From positions 1,860,001 to 1,924,000 of the forward strand of contig CP001643.1 in the NCBI GenBank assembly GCA_000023405.1: a DNA stretch of 64,000 nt, given 5' to 3'. The stretch comes from Brachybacterium faecium DSM 4810 (lineage in GTDB: Bacteria > Actinomycetota > Actinomycetes > Actinomycetales > Dermabacteraceae). Both the position numbers and the translations under genes were made by a program. Positions 6,615-35,734 of the stretch are shown here, piece after piece; position 1 is the first letter of the stretch; each line of letters opens with the position of its first letter. The notes below the pieces were generated by a model. It saw nothing but the letters and a program-made list of their open reading frames with translations, did no database searches and had not been told where the DNA came from.

Positions 6615-7301
6615 TCAGAGGAAGTCGTTGCCGTCGATGTACCACTGGCCGTCGTCGGCCTCGACGAAGGTGAAACCGCCGTCCTCGCCGAGCATGGTGA
6701 TGCCGGCAGTCCCGTCGCCGTTGTCCACGCCCTCGATCATCGAGCGGTCGATCACGTCGAAGATCGCGGGGTCGACGCCCTGCTCCTCGGCCCGCTCCTC
6801 GAAGCCCTGGGCGCAGGCGCCGCGCTCCGCATCGCCGAGCGGCGCATCGGTGGCCGGGTTCATCACGAGCGCGCAGGCGGCGTCGCCGTCGGCCTGTGCC
6901 GCGGCCTCGAGGAACTCGTAGAACCGGTCGCCGACCGCGGTGAGATCGTCCTCGGACAGCGATCCCGCCTCGGCGTCCTCGCCCTCCTCGGCGGAGGTGT
7001 CGCCGTCCGCGTCGCTCGCGTCCTCGGCCTCCTCCTCGGCGGCGCTCTCGGCCTCCTCAGCGGCCTCCGCCCCCTCCTCGGCGGCGCCCTCGCCCTCCTC
7101 GGCGGCAGTGCCGTCGGCCTCGGAGGCGTCATCCTCGGAGTCGGGACCGTCCTCGGAGGAGCCCTCCTCGACGGTCGTGCTGTCGTCCGTCTCCTCGTCC
7201 CCGCCGGTGAGGCCGCCGCAAGCCGCGGCACCGGCCACGATGGCCAGCGCCCCCAGCGTCGCCGCCGTGCCTCGAACCGTCCTGCGCATGATCGACGTCA
7301 T
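6615..7301 (-). CDS. Secreted lipoprotein with acidic linker and DUF4878-like domain
   Basis: A 228-residue protein with a lipoprotein signal (Arg-rich N-terminus, hydrophobic run, lipobox VAGAAAC). About 90 residues of almost pure Glu/Asp/Ala/Ser follow, then a C-terminal domain (VGDRFYEFLEAAAQADGDAACALV ... DNGDGT ... DGQWYIDG). That domain resembles the NTF2-fold DUF4878-type domains of actinobacterial lipoproteins; this is a weak assignment by eye. GAGGAG precedes the chosen start. The downstream-strand neighbour at 7440-7994 has the same architecture, so the two are a tandem duplication. Expected location: anchored outside the cytoplasmic membrane. Function unknown. Confidence 0.75.
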   Translation of the reverse strand: MTSIMRRTVRGTAATLGALAIVAGAAACGGLTGGDEETDDSTTVEEGSSEDGPDSEDDASEADGTAAEEGEGAAEEGAEAAEEAESAAEEEAEDASDADGDTSAEEGEDAEAGSLSEDDLTAVGDRFYEFLEAAAQADGDAACALVMNPATDAPLGDAERGACAQGFEERAEEQGVDPAIFDVIDRSMIEGVDNGDGTAGITMLGEDGGFTFVEADDGQWYIDGNDFL

Positions 7302-27161: not shown

Positions 27162-27522
27162 CTCCGGACTGCGCGCTCACGCGCATTCCCTCACCATTGG
27201 ATAAAGCGTTATAGTAACAGGTCAGAGCACTATTGTCCGAAAATATGCGGACGTTGAACGAGACCGCTCCAGCTGGTCACCGCAGGGACCGTCCTCGCAC
27301 AGCACCCTCCGACGGAGGCGTCGGAATGGCGACCTCCACTGTAGTTCCGACACCGCACCTCTGGGCTCTGTTCCGCCAGGAATTGCAGCCCCGCTGCACC
27401 CGCAGGATCCTTCCGGACCGTCCGCGGATCCCGATGCCGGTTCGCTGTCCCGCATCCCCGGTGTCCCACCTGGTCACGCCCGTTCCCCGTGATAGATTCC
27501 TGACGCCCTGCGCGCAGGGCAC
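27162..27522. other. Gap between LacI gene and tRNA
   Basis: 361 bp without a gene. It holds the LacI promoter/operator area near 27200 and an inverted repeat GTCGGAA (27320-27326) / TTCCGAC (27345-27351). Nothing else is recognisable. Confidence 0.4.
27201..27212. promoter_or_regulatory. Candidate LacI-family operator
   Basis: ATAAAGCGTTAT is palindromic at 10 of 12 positions with a central GC, the usual form of LacI-family operators. It lies 49 bp upstream of the LacI start, in AT-rich sequence that contains TACTATAAC on the minus strand as a possible -10 region. Confidence 0.45.
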
Positions 27523-27596
27523 GGCCCAGTAGCTCAGCCGGTCAGAGCAGCGGACTCATAATCCGTCGGTCGCGGGTTCAAGCCCCGCCTGGGCTA
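27523..27596 (+). tRNA. tRNA with anticodon CAT (probably elongator Met)
   Basis: Acceptor GGCCCAG/CTGGGCT (first pair G-U), D arm GCTCAGCCGGTCAGAGC, anticodon stem GCGGA/TCCGT with loop CTCATAA (anticodon CAT), T arm GCGGGTTCAAGCCCCGC. Elongator Met is most likely; an Ile tRNA with modified CAT cannot be excluded by eye. Its 3' half is the attachment site of the neighbouring element, and the tRNA remains intact. Confidence 0.88.
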
Positions 27597-27597
27597 C
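27563..27597 (+). repeat. attL, 35-bp core
   Basis: Covers the 3' side of the anticodon stem, the T arm and acceptor of the CAT tRNA. Identical to 35700-35734; the flanking bases differ on both sides (T against A on the left, C against G on the right). Confidence 0.95.
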
Positions 27598-27641
27598 CGA
27601 AGAACCGCGCATACAGCGCATTGACCAGAGAAGATGCTGCG

Positions 27642-28933
27642 CTAGGCGGTTTCGCTCTCACCTCCCAGAATCGGTGTGGGGCACTTTTGGGGCACCTCCC
27701 CCGGGACCGGCACCAGTTGCAGGTGCCTCGTCCGGGCCTGTTCCATGGCGTCGGCGACCTCGTCCAGACGGTCCGGCCACAGGTGCGAGTACGTGTCTGC
27801 TTCGCGTCGGCGTGCCCCAGCATCTGCTTGACGACCATCACGTCAGCCCCGGCAGCGATAGCAGCCGACGCCGCTGTGTGCCGCAGCTTGTGCGGGGTGA
27901 GACCCCGGTGCGCGAGACCAGCGTCAGCAGCAGCCGGGCCGAACACGCGGATTCTCCAGTTGTGATCGTCGATCGCTCCCCCGCGCTGCGCACGGAACAC
28001 GAACCCGTCAGCGGCCTGCCCTGCCGTCAGGGCGCGCAGCTCGTCGACGAGGAAACCCGTCAGCGGCACGGCCCGGCGCTCGTGAGTCTTCGGCGCACCC
28101 AGCGCCCGCTTCCCGTCCGGGTCACGGGTCCAGGTGGCGCGAATGAACGCACGACGGGCGGGCAGGTCGACGTCGGAGACGCGCAGCGCGGTCGCCTCGC
28201 CGATGCGCGCCCCGACGTAGCCGAGGAACAGCACTAGCACCCGGTCAGTGTCGGACCCGGTCACGCCCTCGGCAGCACGCGCCAGCGCGTCCAGCTCCCG
28301 GTGATCGAGGTACACGGGATCGGCAGCGGTGATCCGGGGCCGCTTCACTCGGGCGGCAGGGTTCGACGGGATCATGTTGTTGTCGACGGCCCACGTCAGC
28401 ACCGCAGACGCGACGGTGTGCACGTGCTTGACCATCGTCGGCGCGAGCGGCTGTTTCAGCGTGCCCCGCACCCGCTCCCCCGTGTCGCGGTTGAGGTAGG
28501 CGACGGGGGCGGTGCCCTTCGCGAGCGCGGACACCCAGCCCTCAACGTCGGCGCGGCTGATGTGCCCGACGGTCAGGTGGCCGAACTGGGGCAGCACGTA
28601 GGTGTCCAGCTCTCGCCGGTACCGGTGCAGGGTCGATCCCTTCACGTCCATGCGGGTGCTGATCCATCGCTCGGCAGCATCACGGAATAGGGTGTTCCCC
28701 GCCTCGGGTGGCCGGTAGGTGCCGGACCGGATCGAACTGTTCAGCTCGTCGGCGTAGGTCTGCGCGTCGACCTTGCGGGCAAAGTCCTTCTTGCGCCGAC
28801 GCTTGACCGGGGTATTGCCGGGGCCGGGCGCGGTCTCGTCCCACTGCACTTGCCAGCGTGACCCGACGCCGTGGCGTGCCGAGGGGGTGCGGTCCTTCTT
28901 CACCCATCGGTCAAGGATGAATGCGCGACTCAT
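27642..28933 (-). pseudogene. int: Tyrosine integrase, frameshifted before the catalytic Tyr
   Basis: The first 380 residues are a normal phage-type integrase: N-terminal AP2-like and core-binding regions, then catalytic Arg243 (GYVGARIGEATAL), His348/Arg351 (PHKLRHTAAS) and His374 (MLGHADAKQT). After T380 the frame is lost near 27794. The shifted frame reads YSHLWPDRLDEVADAMEQAR, the expected nucleophile Tyr and C-terminal helix, and ends at TAG 27642-27644. The unshifted frame instead runs on without homology to 27578, inside the tRNA. Restoring a second copy of GCAGACA would give KQTADTYSHLW, so slippage loss of a 7-bp repeat is a simple explanation. Sequencing error or programmed shifting are alternatives. 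It overlaps the upstream HTH gene by 4 bp (ATGA). Confidence 0.82.
27677..27695. repeat. Left pair of TGGGGCAC repeats, candidate integrase arm sites
   Basis: TGGGGCAC at 27677-27684 and 27688-27695, same orientation. A matching pair lies near attR at 35548-35567. Arm-type sites of this paired form are expected on both flanks of an integrated element. Confidence 0.5.
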
Positions 28934-29781
28934 CGGGGCTGGTCTCCTGTCTTGCGGGGCCGTCCACCCTTGGGGGCGGGACGGGTGACGAGGCCCTGGC
29001 GGCGGGCCTCACGGATGCGGTTACGGGCTGTGCTGGGGGTGAGTCCGTATCGGTCCTGCACGGCTCTCATGGGCTGATCCCCGGCGCTGTTGTAGGTGTC
29101 GGCGATGCGTTGCAGCTCGAAGCGAGCAGGGCCGCGCCGCTCGGAGTGACCGGGCCGCAACCGCCGAGCAGCCTTGCGGGCGTCGGCGTCGGTGCCGTCC
29201 CAGACGTCGGAGTGCTTCACCAGAGCAGGCACGACGCGATCCAGCACGACGGGCAGACTCGGCGTGCTGCGCAGGTGCTCTTGCGTAACGCTCATCGCCC
29301 CGTCCGGCTGTGACCAGAGGCTGACCTGAGAGCTGATGCCGAGGTCGCCGCCGAGGATCACCTGATGCGTGACGAACATGCTGCGCTGGTATGTGACGTC
29401 ATGCTCCAGCACGTGGTGGGCGCAGAAGGACACCGGCAGCGGAGGCAGCCCGTCGACGCCGGGACCCCAGTCGCCGGTCATGTGCTGGTGATGCTCAACG
29501 GTGACCCACCAGTGCGAGCCGTCCCGCTGTGGTGCTGGGATCACCGTCAGCAGGAACCACGGACGCGGCCCCGGCAGCGGCGGCCTGAACGAGGTGTGGT
29601 GCTCGTTGAACAGCTTCGCAAGTGCAGCGGTCTCGTCGGAATAGCCCCGGCTCGTCGTCGCCGCTGATGCGTATGCGCCCCATGCGTCGGTGAGCGCGGC
29701 GCGCTGGTCCTCGTCGATTTGCACCCAGAGCGGGCCGAGCATCGCGTCGACGGGCGGGTCGACCTGTTCCGCCTGTTCCAT
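28930..29781 (-). CDS. Element protein with C-terminal helix-turn-helix
   Basis: 283 residues. The N-terminal two thirds has no family I recognise (aromatic-rich, with PRPWFLLTVIPAPQRDGSHWWVTVEHHQHM). The last about 60 residues form an HTH (LQRIADTYNSAGDQPMRAVQDRYGLTPSTARNRIREARRQGLV) with a basic tail. GAGGGG precedes the ATG. It is co-directional with int and overlaps it by 4 bp; it diverges from the excisionase-like gene. In PICI-type elements this position is held by the master repressor or a related regulator, so a regulatory role is plausible but unproven. Confidence 0.7.
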   Translation of the reverse strand: MEQAEQVDPPVDAMLGPLWVQIDEDQRAALTDAWGAYASAATTSRGYSDETAALAKLFNEHHTSFRPPLPGPRPWFLLTVIPAPQRDGSHWWVTVEHHQHMTGDWGPGVDGLPPLPVSFCAHHVLEHDVTYQRSMFVTHQVILGGDLGISSQVSLWSQPDGAMSVTQEHLRSTPSLPVVLDRVVPALVKHSDVWDGTDADARKAARRLRPGHSERRGPARFELQRIADTYNSAGDQPMRAVQDRYGLTPSTARNRIREARRQGLVTRPAPKGGRPRKTGDQPR

Positions 29782-29845
29782 AGAAACCCCTCAACTGGCT
29801 GCCTGCCGTGACCCCTGTAAGGGTACTGGATAGATCGCAATCATA

Positions 29846-29871
29846 CCTAGTAGCACGCACAGAACACTAGG
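29846..29871. promoter_or_regulatory. Candidate operator in the divergent control region
   Basis: CCTAGT (29846-29851) and ACTAGG (29866-29871) form a perfect inverted repeat with a 14-bp spacer, 12 bp before the excisionase-like start. The minus strand carries TATGAT (revcomp of 29840-29845) as a possible -10 for the leftward genes. It is a likely control point between the leftward and rightward modules. Confidence 0.45.
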
Positions 29872-29882
29872 AATGGAGCGCC

Positions 29883-30107
29883 ATGGAAACCCTGCCTCGC
29901 ACCCCCAGCCCCAGCACCGACACCACACCGCAAACGCTCACCCCCGCCCGACTCTCCGAGCGCTGGGATATCCCCGTCGCGACCCTCGCCGGGTGGCGCT
30001 ACCGGGGCAAGGGGCCCGCGTTCCTTCGCCTCAACGGCGCGGTCCGGTACCGCGTCGCCGACGTCGAGGACTACGAGGCGGCGCAGCTGCACGGGGGGAT
30101 CGCGTGA
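29883..30107 (+). CDS. xis: Excisionase-like helix-turn-helix protein, 74 aa
   Basis: Has the MerR/AlpA-type layout LTPARLSERWDIPVATLAGWRYRGKGPAFLRLNGAVRYRVADVEDYEA (residues about 19-66): an HTH followed by a wing (G-x-G-P-x-F-x-x-x-x-x-x-V-R-Y) and D-V-E-x-Y. This is the common excisionase/AlpA fold of integrating elements. It is the first gene of the rightward operon, with a GTGA overlap to the next gene. Confidence 0.8.
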   Translation: METLPRTPSPSTDTTPQTLTPARLSERWDIPVATLAGWRYRGKGPAFLRLNGAVRYRVADVEDYEAAQLHGGIA

Positions 30108-30424
30108 CCGTGGCCCCACACAGAGAAAGCCGCCCCGGTCAAGCAACCGGGACGGCCTCAGACTTCCGACGAACACGCACCCCCGATACTACCGTCCCCG
30201 CGCCCGTTGACGGCGGTCTGGCGATGCTGCACGGGCCGTTGATGCACCCGGACAGTGCCCCCGCGATCTGGCGCGAGTACGGGCGGCCCCCGGCCCCGCC
30301 GTGGGGCAGCTACCTGGACACCACACCCCTGCCGAGGCACCGGGACCGGCGCGGCCCGTACGAGGTCGCCATGGACGCAGCACAGCAGCACGGTGCACAG
30401 CAGCGAGGGGGGATGATCCCGTGA
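30104..30424 (+). CDS. Hypothetical element protein, 106 aa
   Basis: Starts GTG overlapping the stop of the excisionase-like gene and ends overlapping the GTG of the ATPase gene (both GTGA). The tight coupling supports translation. Rich in Pro, Arg and His (TVPAPVDGGLAMLHGPLMHPDSAPAIWREYG); no recognised domain. Confidence 0.6.
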   Translation: MTVAPHRESRPGQATGTASDFRRTRTPDTTVPAPVDGGLAMLHGPLMHPDSAPAIWREYGRPPAPPWGSYLDTTPLPRHRDRRGPYEVAMDAAQQHGAQQRGGMIP

Positions 30425-31692
30425 GCGTCGATCTGTTCGAGCTCGAAGCCGACATGAACGCCGACTCCCCCAACGGCCCCGAACAGCTCTGGTCGGCGCG
30501 CCCCCACCTCGGCACGATCCACGACTTCGCCCGTGCCCGTCTCGCCTCACCATGGGCCGTGCTCGGCACCGTCATGCTGCGCGCCCTCGCCACGGTCCCG
30601 CCGAACGTCACCCTTCCCCCGCTCGTCGGTGGCAGGGCATCGCTGAACCTCTTTACGGCGCTCGTCGGTGCGTCCGGCAGTGGGAAGGGCGCAGCGATGC
30701 GAGCGGCAGCCGATGCTGTCACCATCGTGCAGCCCGTCCCCGTGATGCCCCTCGGCTCCGGTGAAGGTCTCGTCAGGGCCTACGCGATCCGGGAGACCGA
30801 GGAAGTCGACGGGGAGCGGGTGCCGGTCACCCGCATGGTCAACACGACGATTCTGTTTGAGGTGTCCGAGGTCGATCACCTCGGCGCGCAGGGACAGCGG
30901 ACCGGGTCGACGCTCATGCCGCAGCTGCGCAGCGCGTACAGCGGGGAGCAGCTGGGATCGACGTACGCCGCGACCGAGAAGTCGGTGGTGCTGCAACCGC
31001 ACACGTACCGGCTCGGGATGATCGCCGGAGTACAGCCCGCCCGCTCGGGAATCCTGCTGCACGACGCCGACGGCGGCACCCCGCAGCGGTTCGTGTGGCT
31101 CCCGACGACGGACCCGGCCCCGTCCCTCGGCGTCGACGAACCGGCCCCGTACCGGCTCCCGACGGCACCGTGGCCCACTGGCCCGTGGAGCATGGGCGTG
31201 CCCGCCGAGGCGGCCCAGGCGATCCGTCAGAAGCGCGTGGCGACGCTGCGCGGCGATGCTGACCCGCTGGACGGCCACGCGATGCAAACGCGGCTCAAGG
31301 TGGCCGCTGCACTCGCCGTCCTGGACGGGCGGCAGTCGGTGAGCCGGGATGACTGGCGACTCGCAGGGTTCGTGATGGTGAAGTCCGACGAGTCCCGCGC
31401 CGTGTGCGTCGCCGCTCTATCCCACCTTGAGCGGCAGCGAGCACGCACCCAGGGGCAAGCGGACGCCGAGCGGGCCGACGCCCGGGCACTGCACCAGCGG
31501 GCGAAGGGCGTAGACCGGATCGCAGCTCTGATCGTTCAGCACGTGACCGCGAATCCGGACGGCATCACCGAGGGGGAGCTGAACCGGCGGCTTGCGAGCC
31601 GAGACCGCCCGTTCCTCGCCGAGGCCATTGGGCGGGCCATGGATGCCGGGCAGATCGAGCGATCCGGGGCCGAGGTGTTCCCGTGCTTCTGA
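30421..31692 (+). CDS. P-loop ATPase, putative replication protein (DUF3987-like)
   Basis: 423 residues. Walker A is GASGSGKG (83-90; the usual Ser/Thr after GK is Gly). A Walker B-like segment TTILFEVSEVDHLG follows (about 142-155), then a sensor-like stretch (HTYRLGMIAGVQPARSG) and a C-terminal winged-helix-like tail (ALIVQHVTANPDGITEGELNRRLASRD). The layout resembles helicase/ATPase parts of DUF3987 and primase-polymerase-associated proteins of actinobacterial elements; a primase domain is not evident. It sits where satellites carry their replication gene, directly before an iteron region. GTG start coupled to the upstream gene. Confidence 0.65.
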   Translation: MSVDLFELEADMNADSPNGPEQLWSARPHLGTIHDFARARLASPWAVLGTVMLRALATVPPNVTLPPLVGGRASLNLFTALVGASGSGKGAAMRAAADAVTIVQPVPVMPLGSGEGLVRAYAIRETEEVDGERVPVTRMVNTTILFEVSEVDHLGAQGQRTGSTLMPQLRSAYSGEQLGSTYAATEKSVVLQPHTYRLGMIAGVQPARSGILLHDADGGTPQRFVWLPTTDPAPSLGVDEPAPYRLPTAPWPTGPWSMGVPAEAAQAIRQKRVATLRGDADPLDGHAMQTRLKVAAALAVLDGRQSVSRDDWRLAGFVMVKSDESRAVCVAALSHLERQRARTQGQADAERADARALHQRAKGVDRIAALIVQHVTANPDGITEGELNRRLASRDRPFLAEAIGRAMDAGQIERSGAEVFPCF

Positions 31693-31885
31693 CCACCGAC
31701 GGCAGCCCCAGGGACACGTGGACACGTGGACGGGTGGACACCCTATCCCCGCACGTCCACGGCTCTTCCGAATCCATAACCGCAGGTCAACAGGTCGCAC
31801 CTCTGTCTAGAAGACCAGATTCTGCGCTCTCACCGTGGAGACCCGTCCACCTGTCCACTGTCCACACCACCCAGGAGACACCCCG
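31693..31885. other. Candidate replication origin with GTGGAC iterons
   Basis: GTGGAC occurs three times in direct orientation with 8-bp spacing at 31718, 31726 and 31734. The inverse GTCCAC occurs at 31755 and, three times at 7-8-bp spacing, at 31845, 31853 and 31860. Between the outer clusters is a region less GC-rich than its surroundings (about 31765-31835). Iterons flanking a melting region beside a rep gene are typical of SaPI-type and plasmid origins. Confidence 0.6.
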
Positions 31886-32089
31886 ATGAACTACCCCACC
31901 GTGCAACCCATCCGCGTCACCGCGAACCGCGACCACCCCGGCGCGCATGTCGTCACGATCCGGTGCCCCTACTGCCACCGCGAACACTCGCACGGCCTAC
32001 CCGCCGGGGACACGGCAGCCGGACACCGTCACTCCCACTGCGGGCGTGGCAACGGCTACATGATCGCCGCAGCCGAGGCTGACCGGTGA
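31886..32089 (+). CDS. Small zinc-ribbon-like protein, 67 aa
   Basis: Contains IRCPYCHREHSHG then HRHSHCGRGNGYMI: a C-x-x-C pair and later His/Cys residues that could bind zinc. CAGGAG lies 8 nt before the ATG. It directly follows the iteron region and overlaps the next gene (GTGA). No family recognised. Confidence 0.6.
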   Translation: MNYPTVQPIRVTANRDHPGAHVVTIRCPYCHREHSHGLPAGDTAAGHRHSHCGRGNGYMIAAAEADR

Positions 32090-32268
32090 GGCCCCTCGCA
32101 GGCCCTCCCCGCCTCACCCCGTACCTATGGAACCGCCGACAGACCGACGCCGAGCCCGGCGCGATGGTCCACAGCAGGGGCAGCCGCCTGTTCATTCCCG
32201 GAGCCGAGCTGCGCAACGTAGCCGACGCGCTGCACGACATCGCCGACGAACAGGAAGCGGATCAATGA
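32086..32268 (+). CDS. Hypothetical small element protein, 60 aa
   Basis: Starts at GTG overlapping the upstream stop. Contains LFIPGAELRNVADALHDIADEQEADQ, an amphipathic acidic C-terminal helix. Small proteins ending in this way are common in actinophages and related elements. Function unknown. Confidence 0.55.
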   Translation: MRPLAGPPRLTPYLWNRRQTDAEPGAMVHSRGSRLFIPGAELRNVADALHDIADEQEADQ

Positions 32269-32355
32269 CCGCGGCAGCCCGGCCACGAGCACCACCACCA
32301 CACCGCGGCCACCGACCACCAACACGACACCACCACGTCCCGGAAGTACAACACC

Positions 32356-33081
32356 ATGAGCAAGACGAGCAAGTACCAGACCGCCTACCTCGAGTACCGC
32401 ACCGCCCAGATCAACGCCGAGCGGATGCATGACCCGGACCTGACCCCCGAGGCGAACCGCGCCCGGCGCGCCGAGGCCCGCGCCGCAGCCCGCGCCAAGC
32501 TGCGCCAGGCGATCCCGCAGCGGCCCACCGGCCCCGACCCCCGCGACGCCGTGCTCGGCACCCTCGCCGCGACCACCGCGGATCAGATCGCCGTGCAGGG
32601 CCGCGAGCGGGAGAAGATCGAGACCCTGCTGGCCCGCGGCACGCACCTCTCCCAGGTCATCGCACAGGCCGACGAGCGCCGCCTGAGCGCCATCCTGGAC
32701 TGGCTGGAGACCTCGGACCGGGTGCTGAACTCTCCCGACCCGCTCGCGGCGCAGGCGGAGCTGCGCGGTGCCGTGTTCGACCGCCTCGCCGGTCTCGGCT
32801 ACGACGGCACGCAGCAGGCCCGCGACATCGCCGCCGAGCGCGAGCAGACGACCGCATGGGTCGATGCACTCGAGAGCGCGGCGAGCGGTGAACAGGTCGG
32901 CTACGGCCCCCGCGCCGTGATCTTCCAGGCCGACCCCGAGGCGTACCACGGCACCCTCGGCATGAAGCTCCCCGCCGAGGACACGCGGACCCTCGCCGAC
33001 GCGGACCAGCACACCCGCGCCGACATGCAGCGGGAGCAGGCGGCGGACCGTCAGCAGGACCTCACGGGGACGGACCAGTGA
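32356..33081 (+). CDS. Hydrophilic helical element protein, 241 aa
   Basis: Starts MSKTSKYQTAYLEYRTAQIN and continues with Arg/Ala/Glu-rich helices (RARRAEARAAARAKLRQ), a middle helical part (LSAILDWLETSDRVLNSPD), and a C-terminal segment with YGPRAVIFQADPEAYHGTLGMKLP, then a charged tail. No signal or membrane segment. GGAAG precedes the ATG. It lies directly before the TerS-like gene with a 4-bp overlap. I do not recognise a family; a helper-capsid or packaging role is possible by position only. Confidence 0.65.
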   Translation: MSKTSKYQTAYLEYRTAQINAERMHDPDLTPEANRARRAEARAAARAKLRQAIPQRPTGPDPRDAVLGTLAATTADQIAVQGREREKIETLLARGTHLSQVIAQADERRLSAILDWLETSDRVLNSPDPLAAQAELRGAVFDRLAGLGYDGTQQARDIAAEREQTTAWVDALESAASGEQVGYGPRAVIFQADPEAYHGTLGMKLPAEDTRTLADADQHTRADMQREQAADRQQDLTGTDQ

Positions 33082-33470
33082 CCGGCCGCAGCATGGCCCG
33101 GATCGAACGGGCGAAGCGGGACGCGGCGATCCTCGAGGCCCTGGCCCAGGGGCGGACGCAGCGGCAGGCGGCGGATGAGCACGGGGTGTCCAAGACGACC
33201 GTTCACCGAGTCCTGACCAACATGCAGGAGACCCTGCCCGAGCAGGCTGTGGCCCGCGACCTGATGATGTCGAGGTTCGCCACCTACCGGGCGCACCTCT
33301 GGCCCCTGCTGGAGCAGGACCCGGTGCGGACGGTCCCCCGCCTGCTGGAGGTCGACCAGCTCGAGGCCCGCACCCGCGGCATGTTCGAGCCGCAGCAGGG
33401 CGAGGGCACCGCCGAAGTATCGGGCATGCTCGCGATGCTGATCGGACGGCGGGAAGGGGGTGCAGCATGA
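33078..33470 (+). CDS. Terminase small subunit-like HTH protein
   Basis: 130 residues. N-terminal HTH about residues 8-45 (RAKRDAAILEALAQGRTQRQAADEHGVSKTTVHRVL). A helical middle follows (ATYRAHLWPLLEQDP), then LLEVDQLEARTRGMFEP, which resembles the R-x-x-x-L-G-L-x-x-P ending of small terminase-like proteins. In phage satellites a TerS redirects the helper packaging motor to satellite DNA. A simple regulatory HTH is the alternative. The GTG start overlaps the previous stop. Confidence 0.55.
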   Translation: MTGRSMARIERAKRDAAILEALAQGRTQRQAADEHGVSKTTVHRVLTNMQETLPEQAVARDLMMSRFATYRAHLWPLLEQDPVRTVPRLLEVDQLEARTRGMFEPQQGEGTAEVSGMLAMLIGRREGGAA

Positions 33471-33631
33471 ACCGGCTGGAGCAGCTCCGACTGCAGTGGG
33501 CAACCGAGCTGGAGAAGATCGACGACGGCTACGCCGACGCACTGGAGGACGGCAAGGACCCGGTGCGAATGGCCCAGCTGGAGGGCATGATCGCCGCCTA
33601 TCAGCAGATCATCCGCGACGCGGCACGCTGA
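33467..33631 (+). CDS. Small helical protein, 54 aa
   Basis: MNRLEQLRLQWATELEKIDD... then MAQLEGMIAAYQQIIRDAAR: mostly amphipathic helix. Starts ATGA over the TerS-like stop, so it is the last member of the coupled run. A hairpin follows. Function unknown. Confidence 0.6.
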   Translation: MNRLEQLRLQWATELEKIDDGYADALEDGKDPVRMAQLEGMIAAYQQIIRDAAR

Positions 33632-33639
33632 CGGGCACC

Positions 33640-33680
33640 GGACGGCCCCCACTCCCCTTCATCGGGGGCTGGGGGCGTCC
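33640..33680 (+). terminator. Terminator of the rightward operon
   Basis: GGACGGCCCCCA (33640-33651) pairs with TGGGGGCGTCC (33670-33680) with one bulge. It ends the xis-to-small-gene operon. Confidence 0.65.
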
Positions 33681-33765
33681 AGCTTGTCGGCAGCGCGGCC
33701 CCGTCTGGGGTTAAATCATCGGATGGCGGTCCGTCCTGGTCCGCGCTGCCTGATAGGAGACTTCC

Positions 33766-34239
33766 GTGCTGTTCCTACTGACCCCGCCCCACGCCATCCT
33801 GTGGAGTGACCTGCCCGAACGCACTATTGACATCGCCCGCGAACACGGCGGCGACCTCGGCCGCCTGGACTGGCGCGACACCGAGGAGCCGCACGACCCG
33901 GCAACCGTCGTCCAGGTAGCACTGAGGCACGGGGAGGCGTGCAGTCGGGGCATCGTGTTCCCAGCATCGCCGCTGATCGCCGTGGAGGAGCCTGGGAAGC
34001 TGGCCAGCCTCCTGGAGAAGTCGCAAGAGTCCGAGCGTGCGCTGGCCCCGCACGATGAGGTGATGGAAGCACTGATGCCCGGGTGGATCGAGCACGGTCG
34101 AAAGCTGTCCGCTGACGTGGATGAGTCCGTTCGCCGCACTATCGCGCGAGAGCAGGAGGAGGCCGACGCCTTCATGGCTGCCCCGGTGCGCGAGGACGTC
34201 CGGGCCGCCTGGCTACAGATGGGCGGACTCGTCCTCTAA
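33766..34239 (+). CDS. Hypothetical cargo protein, 157 aa
   Basis: GTG start with AGGAG at 6 nt. Reads MLFLLTPPHAILWSDLPERTIDIAREHGGDLGRLDW... then a helical, charged C-terminal half ending MAAPVREDVRAAWLQMGGLVL. No signal peptide or catalytic motif that I recognise. It stands alone between two terminator-like hairpins, as cargo genes of satellites and prophages often do. Confidence 0.6.
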   Translation: MLFLLTPPHAILWSDLPERTIDIAREHGGDLGRLDWRDTEEPHDPATVVQVALRHGEACSRGIVFPASPLIAVEEPGKLASLLEKSQESERALAPHDEVMEALMPGWIEHGRKLSADVDESVRRTIAREQEEADAFMAAPVREDVRAAWLQMGGLVL

Positions 34240-34291
34240 CAACCCGCACAGGACAGTCTGCTGCCGTCACCCCCTCGGCAGGGCAGCAGGG

Positions 34292-34324
34292 CGGTCCCAG
34301 ATCCCTTCACCGGGGCCGGGGCCG
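34292..34324 (+). terminator. Hairpin after the first cargo gene
   Basis: CGGTCCC (34292-34298) with GGGGCCG (34318-34324), one G-U pair. The loop sequence GATCCCTTCACCGGGGCC closely resembles that of the hairpin at 35094-35129. Confidence 0.5.
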
Positions 34325-34466
34325 TTCCATGCTCGCGGGGCGGTAACGGTTCTGCCTCAGTGTCACGAAGCGCAGCAGTGCCATCGTGCAGAGTCATAGT
34401 GTCGATGTATCGCCGAGCGCACATCGCGCGACACTCGGGCTAGCGGCCCGCAAAGGAGGGAGCCCC

Positions 34467-35048
34467 GTGTTCGGACTGTTTAAGAAGCGACCACCGAAAC
34501 GCCCTCGGCTTATCGAGATTCAGTACCGCGACCTTGATGAAGAACCTCGCGACGGCGGTAGGCCCTACGTATATACCTGGGCACTCAAGGAGGACCCGGA
34601 GGTAGGCGGACGGGTGTTTGTTCGTGGCGGGAATGGCGAGAGCACCCCTGCCGTCATCGTTGGGCTCAACGCGTCCCGCCCTGAGAACTACTCCTGGGAT
34701 GAGCTTGCACCGGTCCTCCGCTTCGCAACTAGCCAGGAGCTGGAGGCAGCACGGAACAAGGCAAGGCGTCGGGCTGAGAAAGCGCTGAAGGATGAACAGG
34801 CGTGGCTCAATATGGCGCGCCGTGCTGCAGGGCTACCTACTACGGGGCGTGCCCGGAAAGCGCCCCCGGAAGGCTATAAGGACCTACCGCCCGTTGACGG
34901 GGATGCGCCCCCGGAGAAAGCTCATCGGCATGGCAACGGCTGGTGGCGAGCGTTTAAGGCAGCGGAGCGCCACGGTCGCCCTGCTGAGGAAATCGAGGCG
35001 TTCGCCTCCATCGCGCGCAGGTGGTATCAGAAGCGCGACGCGGGGTAG
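34467..35048 (+). CDS. Hypothetical cargo protein of lower GC, 193 aa
   Basis: GTG start with AAAGGAGGG at ideal spacing; an in-frame ATG 27 codons upstream lacks a site. Sequence: MFGLFKKRPPKRPRLIEIQYRD, a beta-rich middle (VYTWALKEDPEVGGRVFVRGGNGESTPAVIVGL), a basic helical part, and the end GNGWWRAFKAAERHGRPAEEIEAFASIARRWYQKR. Codons such as CTA, ATA and GTA are frequent here and rare in neighbours, which suggests recent transfer. No recognised family; defence or superinfection cargo is possible but unsupported. Confidence 0.65.
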   Translation: MFGLFKKRPPKRPRLIEIQYRDLDEEPRDGGRPYVYTWALKEDPEVGGRVFVRGGNGESTPAVIVGLNASRPENYSWDELAPVLRFATSQELEAARNKARRRAEKALKDEQAWLNMARRAAGLPTTGRARKAPPEGYKDLPPVDGDAPPEKAHRHGNGWWRAFKAAERHGRPAEEIEAFASIARRWYQKRDAG

Positions 35049-35093
35049 TGCGATAGTTCCGATGCATCGCATGCGTAATACGCCAGCGCTATA

Positions 35094-35129
35094 GCGGCCC
35101 CCGATCCCGTCACCCGGGCCGGGGGCCGC
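35094..35129 (+). terminator. Terminator after the second cargo gene
   Basis: GCGGCCCCCG (35094-35103) pairs perfectly with CGGGGGCCGC (35120-35129), followed by TCTATGTCT. Confidence 0.7.
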
Positions 35130-35168
35130 TCTATGTCTGCCGACCCGCTCACGGGCCGCACAGCGCCG

Positions 35169-35510
35169 TCAGCCGAGCGCGTCCGTGTCATAGGCCGTCG
35201 GGTCCGCAGGGTCCGCCTGGTCCCCGCCGTCGCCGTCGCCGTCGCCGAGCACGGTCAGCAGCTCGCCGAGGTGGTCCCGGAGCGCGGCAGCCCCGGCAGG
35301 GGTCAGGGCAACGTCGCCGAGGTGGATCACGTCCCCGCCGTCGGGCGCGCCGCCGAGGGCAGCCTGGACATCGAGCACGGGCGCGATCCTCTCGGCAGTC
35401 TCGATATAGCGGGACGGCGTGGCAGGGCAGCCGGATAGCGTCTCTGTGAACATGCGGGCGCGTAGCTGATGGACGATCTGACGGGCGGCGTCGTCGTGCA
35501 TGTCGGTCAT
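35169..35510 (-). CDS. Hypothetical element protein, 113 aa
   Basis: Acidic protein MTDMHDDAARQIVHQLRARMFTETLSG... VIHLGDVALTPAGAAALRDHLGELLTVLG with an Asp/Gly-rich tail. AGAGGA precedes the ATG at 35510; a start 19 codons upstream overlaps candidate integrase sites. It is the only minus-strand gene at the right end. Function unknown. Confidence 0.6.
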   Translation of the reverse strand: MTDMHDDAARQIVHQLRARMFTETLSGCPATPSRYIETAERIAPVLDVQAALGGAPDGGDVIHLGDVALTPAGAAALRDHLGELLTVLGDGDGDGGDQADPADPTAYDTDALG

Positions 35511-35699
35511 CGTGGAGTCCTCTCCCACGGACGGCACCCGTGCCCCGTGGGGCACTACTTGGGGCACCGCCCGTTACATTGATCTGTGATCTGTTGCGAT
35601 CCCAGCAGCGGGAGCAGAGCAGACATAACGCCTGTTCATGTCCACTATTGAGATGAATCGCTGTTCAATGCGAAAGGGTGCGAAAGGTCCCGATTGCAA
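35511..35699. other. Right end of the element: candidate integrase/Xis binding region
   Basis: No gene. TGGGGCAC at 35548-35555 and 35560-35567 mirrors the pair near attL, with an inverted GTGCCCC at 35540-35546. A 10-bp tandem repeat TGCGAAAGGG/TGCGAAAGGT lies at 35669-35688, 12 bp from attR. Confidence 0.5.
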
Positions 35700-35734
35700 C
35701 CGTCGGTCGCGGGTTCAAGCCCCGCCTGGGCTAC
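35700..35734 (+). repeat. attR, 35-bp core
   Basis: Identical copy of the tRNA 3' segment at 27563-27597, without the 5' half of the tRNA. Chromosomal sequence resumes at 35735. Confidence 0.95.

Follow-up and report, generated by a model that had tools for sequence, protein, structure and literature searches.

What occupies the 3′ end of a tRNA-Met gene in Brachybacterium faecium DSM 4810: the remnant of a prophage, a conjugative element that has lost its transfer gene, or a satellite that travels in the particles of another phage? The question was raised by a 64,000-nucleotide stretch of the genome (assembly GCA_000023405.1, contig CP001643.1, positions 1,860,001 to 1,924,000; the window, in whose numbering coordinates are given). 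A preliminary description, made from the letters alone, had recognized at this tRNA gene the plan of the phage-inducible chromosomal islands (PICI) and Staphylococcus aureus pathogenicity islands (SaPI). Our analysis favors, with a probability of about 0.84, an integrated phage satellite whose own small terminase subunit (TerS) redirects packaging. It would be a TerS-carrying satellite of a little-known group, which most likely hitches in another phage's particles. Papers are cited by accession, from the portions of their text that were available. The best-studied phage satellites come from Firmicutes and Gammaproteobacteria, and those that we found described from actinobacteria have capsid genes of their own (PMC10690885); a survey of actinobacterial prophages merely supposed that small elements might be satellites (PMC10023795).

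The features that define the element and its packaging genes are:

27523..27598, plus strand: tRNA-Met(CAT), the integration target (ARAGORN).
27563..27597, plus strand: attL core, a 35-bp direct repeat equal to the tRNA 3′ end (35/35 identical to 35700-35734).
35700..35734, plus strand: attR, the 35-bp direct repeat, recognized by its identity to the attL core.
33078..33470, plus strand: TerS, 130 amino acids (aa), assigned by homology and synteny.
32356..33081, plus strand: g241, a largely helical TerS partner (adjacent in 8/8 loci; helices from a low-confidence model).

The two repeats are identical at 35/35 positions, the left copy being the 3′ end of tRNA-Met(CAT), and bound a unit of 8,137 bp, which bears out the tRNA-derived duplication around some 8.1 kb that was first described. 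A search of the 3.61-Mb genome with 27500-27700 yielded, besides the two exact att copies, a single further match (82% over 61 bases). The element has a G+C content of 69.0%, against 72.3% for the remaining window. The gene order is also as first described. The integrase gene (int) and a gene for a 283-aa protein with a helix-turn-helix (HTH) end run leftward, diverging from a rightward series that encodes a 74-aa xis-like protein, a 106-aa protein, and a 423-aa P-loop ATPase and continues, beyond a 193-bp gap, with proteins of 67, 60, 241, 130, 54, 157, and 220 aa; a 113-aa minus-strand gene closes the right end. GTGA or ATGA start overlaps, said to begin nearly every rightward gene, are present at only 5/9 junctions between the ten accepted ones. 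The 13 element proteins were scanned against NCBIfam, Pfam, and PHROGs (10 in each library, every protein in at least one), and nothing significant for capsid, portal, large terminase subunit (TerL), tail, lysis, or conjugation was found, in keeping with the reported absence of structural and conjugation genes; nor was there any match to a TraB/FtsK-type translocase or a relaxase among the scanned proteins. The names glnA, ParB-like, MuF-like, scaffold-like, dnaG, CHAD, and those of prophage tail genes are used for genes that we take to be such by eye, from features of their families.

The identity of the 130-aa protein is central. In family searches HTH matches dominate, and the other matches are to phrog_1482 (E 0.0017), PF20901 (E 0.02), and phrog_645 (E 1.2e-8), a family labeled “RNase E”. 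The TerS-like call of the preliminary description, weak by these searches, was later supported by homology and by synteny upstream of prophage TerL genes. TerS homologues were found in 5/47 genomes of the family, B. faecium included. Two of them, with 35% (G385) and 32-34% (G222) identity to the window protein, reside in prophages, three genes (G385) or two genes (G222) upstream of TerL, with ParB-like genes between. TerL is Pfam-confirmed in both (PF03237) and is followed, by eye, by portal, MuF-like, scaffold-like, capsid, and tail genes; the portal (PF05133) and capsid (PF25209) of G385 are Pfam-confirmed, and the G222 counterparts were judged by eye. Both prophage homologues fall into phrog_645 (E 7e-14 and 5e-16), as does the TerS of a related element in Microbacterium memoriense (E 2e-22). 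The latter matches 50 phage records. The best 10 of the 50, which represent nine Microbacterium phages, have identities of 45-53% and cover 58-70% of the query, and in each the match is gene 1, annotated as terminase small subunit in seven, as hypothetical in two, and as RNase E in one. In Microbacterium phage DelaGarza, this gene-1 relative lies seven genes ahead of the terminase gene. Because of the prophage synteny and the gene-1 annotations in Microbacterium phages, phrog_645 appears to be a TerS family in these actinophages and its PHROG label a mislabel. On these comparisons, the identification of the 130-aa protein as a TerS is well supported.

The gene in front of TerS, g241, was found to be its constant companion. 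A g241 profile matched 7/396 genomes of the order and 5/394 of the class, and in a pattern scan of 84,980 species genomes 5/19 candidate stretches were confirmed, all in Brachybacterium or Microbacterium. Weak matches in G124, G111, G429, and G205 (E 4e-5 to 9.9e-4) were dropped because tblastn, for which 160 fetched loci were queried with seven g241 sequences, failed to confirm them at 1e-4. The eight confirmed loci are those of the window, G304, G090, M. memoriense, M. commune, M. psychrotolerans, a Microbacterium metagenome-assembled genome (MAG), and G322, which has a broken copy. A TerS-like gene adjoins g241 in 8/8 of these loci, and it belongs to either of two classes. The phrog_645 class is the neighbor in the window, G304 (assigned by identity), G090, and M. 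memoriense. The second class is found in M. commune, M. psychrotolerans, the MAG, and G322; the two proteins scanned fall into phrog_5536 (function unknown), and the other two were assigned by their similarity to these. The second-class protein of G322 matches a gene that overlaps TerL in a G397 prophage (E 6e-7), and that of M. psychrotolerans matches the same gene at E 0.003. We are less sure that the second class is TerS than we are of the phrog_645 class, because tblastn of the phage records with the M. psychrotolerans protein found nothing.

No relative of g241 was detected in 50,697 phage records (two queries), in 72,556 plasmid records, or in the fetched prophage loci of G222 and G385, and none was found in IMG/VR, where the scans rest on short patterns. 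A model of g241 from its single sequence has a mean predicted local distance difference test score (pLDDT) of 60.8 and gave no fold match at E 0.001 or better, the cut-off for fold searches. We propose that g241 could be the constant partner of the packaging step, as a factor that modifies capsid size or the motor, or as an inhibitor of the helper TerS.

Of the genes around this pair, g60, g54, and g113 recur in other elements. The surrounding genes are:

32086..32268, plus strand: g60, first gene of the module common to the glnA elements (65% identity in G304 and G090).
33467..33631, plus strand: g54, coupled to TerS (72% identity in G304).
33766..34239, plus strand: g157, cargo-slot gene (no significant family; no PADLOC match).
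34386..35048, plus strand: g220, cargo-slot gene (no significant family; no PADLOC match).
35169..35510, minus strand: g113, right-end gene (78% identity, 80.5% DNA identity, in the G304 element).

The closest relatives by this module are compact elements behind glnA in two Brachybacterium genomes, G304 and G090, the latter being Brachybacterium squillarum M-6-3 (NZ_AGBX01000007.1; the g241 coordinates agree). They are bounded by perfect repeats of the glnA 3′ end, of 19 and 18 bp, at 6,756 and 6,466 bp, respectively, and their TerS proteins are 86% (G304) and 59% (G090) identical to that of the window. The window shares g60, g241, and TerS with both; G304 adds g54, g113, and the start of g106. 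At the DNA level, G304 is 77% identical to the window over 32075-33680 and 80.5% over 35167-35524, and int and the ATPase gene are not shared. Instead, the glnA elements encode a 370-372-aa integrase of 25-26% identity to that of the window and an AAA_25-like ATPase, above the Pfam cut-off in G090 only. Because the right-hand genes are shared by elements that differ in int, ATPase, and site, the module g60-g241-TerS-g54-g113 is judged to have passed between elements that differ in where they insert and how they replicate. A third bounded element, in M. memoriense, is defined by a 27-bp tRNA-Val repeat at 5,690 bp. The co-occurrence of the TerS and 241-aa proteins in these other repeat-bounded elements is what the preliminary description had suggested looking for. 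In M. psychrotolerans a serine integrase lies ~15 kb from g241; no att repeat was established in M. psychrotolerans, M. commune, or G322. Defense genes are present near the g241-TerS pair: type II restriction-modification in M. commune, TIR-TM in M. psychrotolerans, and a SIR2-type gene in G322. In the window, the g157 and g220 slot (33766-35048), between g54 and g113, is the stretch of lowest G+C (66%) and has no matching DNA in G304.

Replication is represented by the following features:

30421..31692, plus strand: replicative P-loop ATPase/helicase, 423 aa (phrog_11515, E 6e-76).
31693..31885, no strand: candidate replication origin (7 GTGGAC iterons, 3 forward and 4 inverted).
31886..32089, plus strand: zinc-ribbon-like small protein, 67 aa (weak Zn_ribbon, E 0.002, below cut-off).

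The match of the ATPase to phage DNA polymerase/primase families (phrog_11515) corresponds to their helicase half; no Pfam domain is above cut-off (DUF3987, E 9e-5). It matches 65/50,697 phage records, with 40-43% identity among the 20 matches listed, all but one of which are Gordonia or Mycobacterium phages. Seven GTGGAC words lie within the 193-bp gap behind it (31718-31865), a count reached by 0/5000 shuffles for that word and, for any 6-mer, by 4/5000; these iterons make the gap a probable replication origin. Both the replication-type ATPase and the iteron region of the preliminary description were upheld in this way, the former with matches of up to 43% in Gordonia phages.

The ATPase profile was found in 13/396 genomes of the order, B. 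faecium included; an earlier scan of genome contigs with the ATPase gave no match. The B. faecium genome had no match to phrog_9 either, a result to which no weight is given. Twelve loci of ATPase relatives were searched for repeats, L024 being left out. Six of the 12 have repeats of 22-45 bp that span int and the ATPase gene at the end of a tRNA, tmRNA, or glnA gene, delimiting elements of 7.6, 8.2, 8.9, 9.2, 11.2, and 11.9 kb. L026 has just an 18-bp repeat, inside tRNA-Met (9.7 kb), and the other five gave none. In the four ATPase loci that were scanned, Pfam or PHROGs confirm a packaging or head gene, namely TerS (L025), capsid protein (L023 and L033), and TerL (L035). The gene finder was crude and tuned to high G+C, with no genes called in L027 and few in the L029, L031, L032, and L034 elements; the gene content of these five, mechanical open reading frames (ORFs) only, is not claimed.

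The left end of the element holds:

27578..28933, minus strand: tyrosine integrase ORF, 451 aa (PF00589, E 7e-20; phrog_1, E 1e-60).
28930..29781, minus strand: regulator-like protein, 283 aa, with a winged-HTH-like C-terminus (HTH_24, E 0.022, below cut-off).
29883..30107, plus strand: xis-like HTH_17 protein, 74 aa (PF12728, E 6.5e-6; 26.8 bits, cut-off 27).
30104..30424, plus strand: g106, a small coupled ORF, 106 aa (ORF list).

The 74-aa protein also matches the excisionase family phrog_66 (E 6.6e-5). The 283-aa protein is presumably a regulator; a relative of its C-terminus (39% over 76 aa) lies in the same position beside int in L025. The start of g106 is common to a 195-aa gene of the G304 element (60% over 35 aa; DNA 82% over 85 columns). 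The integrase is identical at 374/375 positions to a 432-aa relative in IMG/VR, past residue 375 its frame diverges, and the relative's tyrosine at residue 384 is absent from it, a departure that the preliminary description had overlooked. This departure may come from decay, with loss of the end that holds the catalytic tyrosine, or from a sequencing error.

The IMG/VR relative (UViG_2867103336_000002, 27,470 bp) carries int, regulator, xis, g106, and ATPase genes with 97.2% identity over 4,151 bp and has the same att core. On the other side of that core lies a siphophage-like prophage (by eye) with an integrase of its own. At the junction no tRNA gene is present, the match being confined to the final 50 bases of the tRNA, and the far end of the prophage is outside the record. 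Because only these 50 tRNA bases are present at the junction, the neighboring prophage appears to use the same site, so that in this relative the att site would be common to element and prophage. A second IMG/VR locus for the ATPase, L037, has 27% identity. The right flank served as query in 38 genomes of the genus, and 40 stretches reaching up to 20 kb behind the tRNA were retrieved. The spacing of tRNA-Met and dnaG varies from ~70 bp, at the empty site of L083, to over 10 kb. In G350 and G076 (L070-L072), the repeats enclose 7.7 and 9.1 kb, in which a different integrase is accompanied by a series of small proteins; at the tRNA-Met of G350, two repeat-bounded units follow one another in tandem.

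Taken as a satellite, the element would depend on a helper siphophage with a matching TerL. When such a phage infects or is induced, int and xis would excise the element, and the ATPase would replicate it from the iteron region as a multimer. The element's TerS would then displace or replace that of the helper, directing the TerL, portal, and head of the helper onto satellite DNA, which would leave in helper-made particles. Excision, helper dependence, and packaging are what we infer for the element.

A number of observations weigh against this interpretation. The window TerS had no tblastn hit in the 50,697 phage records, and none was found by a pattern scan of IMG/VR; its single-sequence model (mean pLDDT 74.5) gave no significant match, with a best E of 0.11 in the PDB and of 0.0018 in a viral fold search, where a terminase small subunit is named in 4 of the 50 rows shown. 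The ATPase family occurs in ordinary phages too, and in L030 it stands beside several head and tail genes by eye, because of which the ATPase alone is no marker of a satellite. Two g241 relatives, in M. psychrotolerans and the Microbacterium MAG, carry a 618-619-aa tape-measure gene, and because of them not every g241-TerS element can be considered free of structural genes. The IMG/VR relative stops at the ATPase stop codon, so that it cannot confirm the right half. The window integrase is frame-shifted, and the window copy is therefore probably crippled for excision. A scan for a helper prophage in the host genome, proposed in the preliminary description, found none by three markers: neither a PF03354 TerL, nor a G222-type TerL (present in 3/47 family genomes), nor a PF05065 capsid (present in 8/38 genus genomes) was detected. 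G304 and G090 likewise have no G222-type TerL and no PF05065 capsid. With int frame-shifted and no resident helper by three marker searches, the window copy may be stranded.

Could the element instead be a decayed prophage, in which early genes and TerS remain after the loss of structural and lysis genes? The phage families of its ATPase and TerS, and the shifted frame of int, would fit such a history. Decay is not expected to leave the same gene set repeatedly between perfect att repeats, and yet the compact plan recurs at glnA and tRNA-Val, in open frames and with different int and replication genes. Moreover, no phage, plasmid, or viral-contig collection that was searched contains g241, the partner of TerS. 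TerS homologues, too, are not confined to larger prophages and reside also in compact elements. We consider a decayed prophage unlikely.

An actinomycete integrative and conjugative element (AICE), or an integrative plasmid, that lost its transfer gene would share much of the left half, since int, xis, a replication gene, and origin repeats also belong to the AICE plan, and the same tRNA-Met in G350 and G076 hosts other compact elements with different integrases; the 130-aa HTH protein would then be a regulator. AICEs are defined by a TraB/FtsK-type translocase, and no match to that type or to a relaxase was found among the proteins scanned. Both the replication gene and the HTH protein belong to phage families, the latter being TerS by position and homology, and among the 72,556 plasmid records 2 match the ATPase and 0 match g241. 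This origin is very unlikely. A capsid-forming satellite that lost its capsid genes is suggested by other elements with this class of ATPase, in which a capsid protein (L023, L033) or TerL (L035) is encoded. The elements closest by the right module (G304, G090, and M. memoriense) are by eye without a capsid gene, and its absence looks to be the rule in this branch, which makes such a loss highly improbable.

The satellite reading is consistent with the broad definition of a phage satellite as a mobile element with mechanisms or signals that favor its packaging in phage particles (PMC11389934): a packaging gene, TerS, is present, and TerL, portal, capsid, and tail genes were not found. The resemblance to PICI/SaPI of the pac type is close. 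Int and a regulator run leftward from xis and replication genes at a repeat-bounded site, a conserved order in which the 283-aa protein would be the master regulator; TerS is present without TerL, cargo lies near the end, and structural and lysis genes were not recognized. The differences are that the element is 8.1 kb and its three bounded relatives 5.7-6.8 kb, that its replication gene corresponds to the helicase part of an actinophage primase/polymerase, and that it carries g241. PICI are said never to share their att sites with prophages and to measure 12-15 kb (PMC6092414), with an average size also quoted as 9.5 kb (PMC10803314). The present element has 8,137 bp, and in its IMG/VR relative the neighbor on the other side of the core is a prophage that has an int of its own, evidence that is strong, not complete. 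Because the att site appears to be shared and the size is below 12-15 kb, membership is not claimed. The element is PICI-like in mechanism but is not filed as a PICI; the compact TerS satellite anatomy first proposed has stood, and the strict PICI label has not.

Other known systems differ more. Capsid-forming PICI encode their own capsid, portal, TerL, and head genes (PMC10690885), none of which was recognized in the window element. The Streptomyces satellites MulchRoom and MiniFlayer share actinobacterial hosts and the satellite lifestyle with it; they encode TerS, TerL, portal, capsid, and scaffold, without a recognizable primase (PMC10690885), whereas the window element has TerS only and its own replication ATPase. 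The Vibrionaceae phage-inducible chromosomal minimalist islands (PICMI) are also very small, with excision and replication genes and no recognized capsid-remodeling gene; in PICMI115, int, alpA, and prim are accompanied by three further genes, and PICMIs adjoin fis (PMC10803314). In contrast, the present element has TerS and g241, and the word “terminase” does not appear in the available PICMI text (PMC10803314). The G222 and G385 prophages share the TerS homologue (32-35%) and an int of 33% identity, but they also have TerL and additional genes for head and tail, with no g241 in their fetched loci. The Vibrio satellite PLE is reported to encode a tape measure protein, which sets tail length, and to have chimeric tails (PMC12987554); two Microbacterium g241-TerS relatives also encode a tape-measure protein, whereas the window element has no such gene. 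A search for “phage satellite” with Brachybacterium gave no match in the full texts searched, which leave most subscription journals outside and do not show absence from print; with Microbacterium, only the Streptomyces satellite paper was returned.

More tentatively, and with a little less than even confidence, we propose a new Micrococcales satellite family defined by g241 and an exchangeable TerS. In this family g241 would be a packaging or head-remodeling factor that lets TerS of different sources take over the helper motor, and the ATPase would mark a large class of compact (7.6-11.9 kb) actinobacterial elements integrated at tRNA, tmRNA, and glnA genes, ranging from those with TerS only through carriers of TerL to those with scaffold and capsid. 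The pair g241 and TerS allows the family to be recognized, and relatives in Brachybacterium squillarum and several Microbacterium species offer strains for helper-phage hunting. The question is raised of which role of g241 is needed by two different TerS classes.

Some of the relatives have features of their own. L035 7002-18941 is an 11.9-kb element bounded at tRNA-Arg that holds int, the ATPase gene, a gene in the position of TerS, TerL, and a DNA methyltransferase-like gene; portal and capsid were not recognized in it by eye. The ATPase-class elements at L023 14789-15700 and L033 6260-7875 encode a capsid protein together with a scaffold-like gene; by eye, neither portal nor TerL was recognized near the capsid gene, and these elements appear to be a different kind of satellite. 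The g241-TerS loci with a tape-measure gene are L145 9992-20534, L151 1-8499 (M. psychrotolerans), and L146; by eye, another phage-like element adjoins that of M. psychrotolerans.

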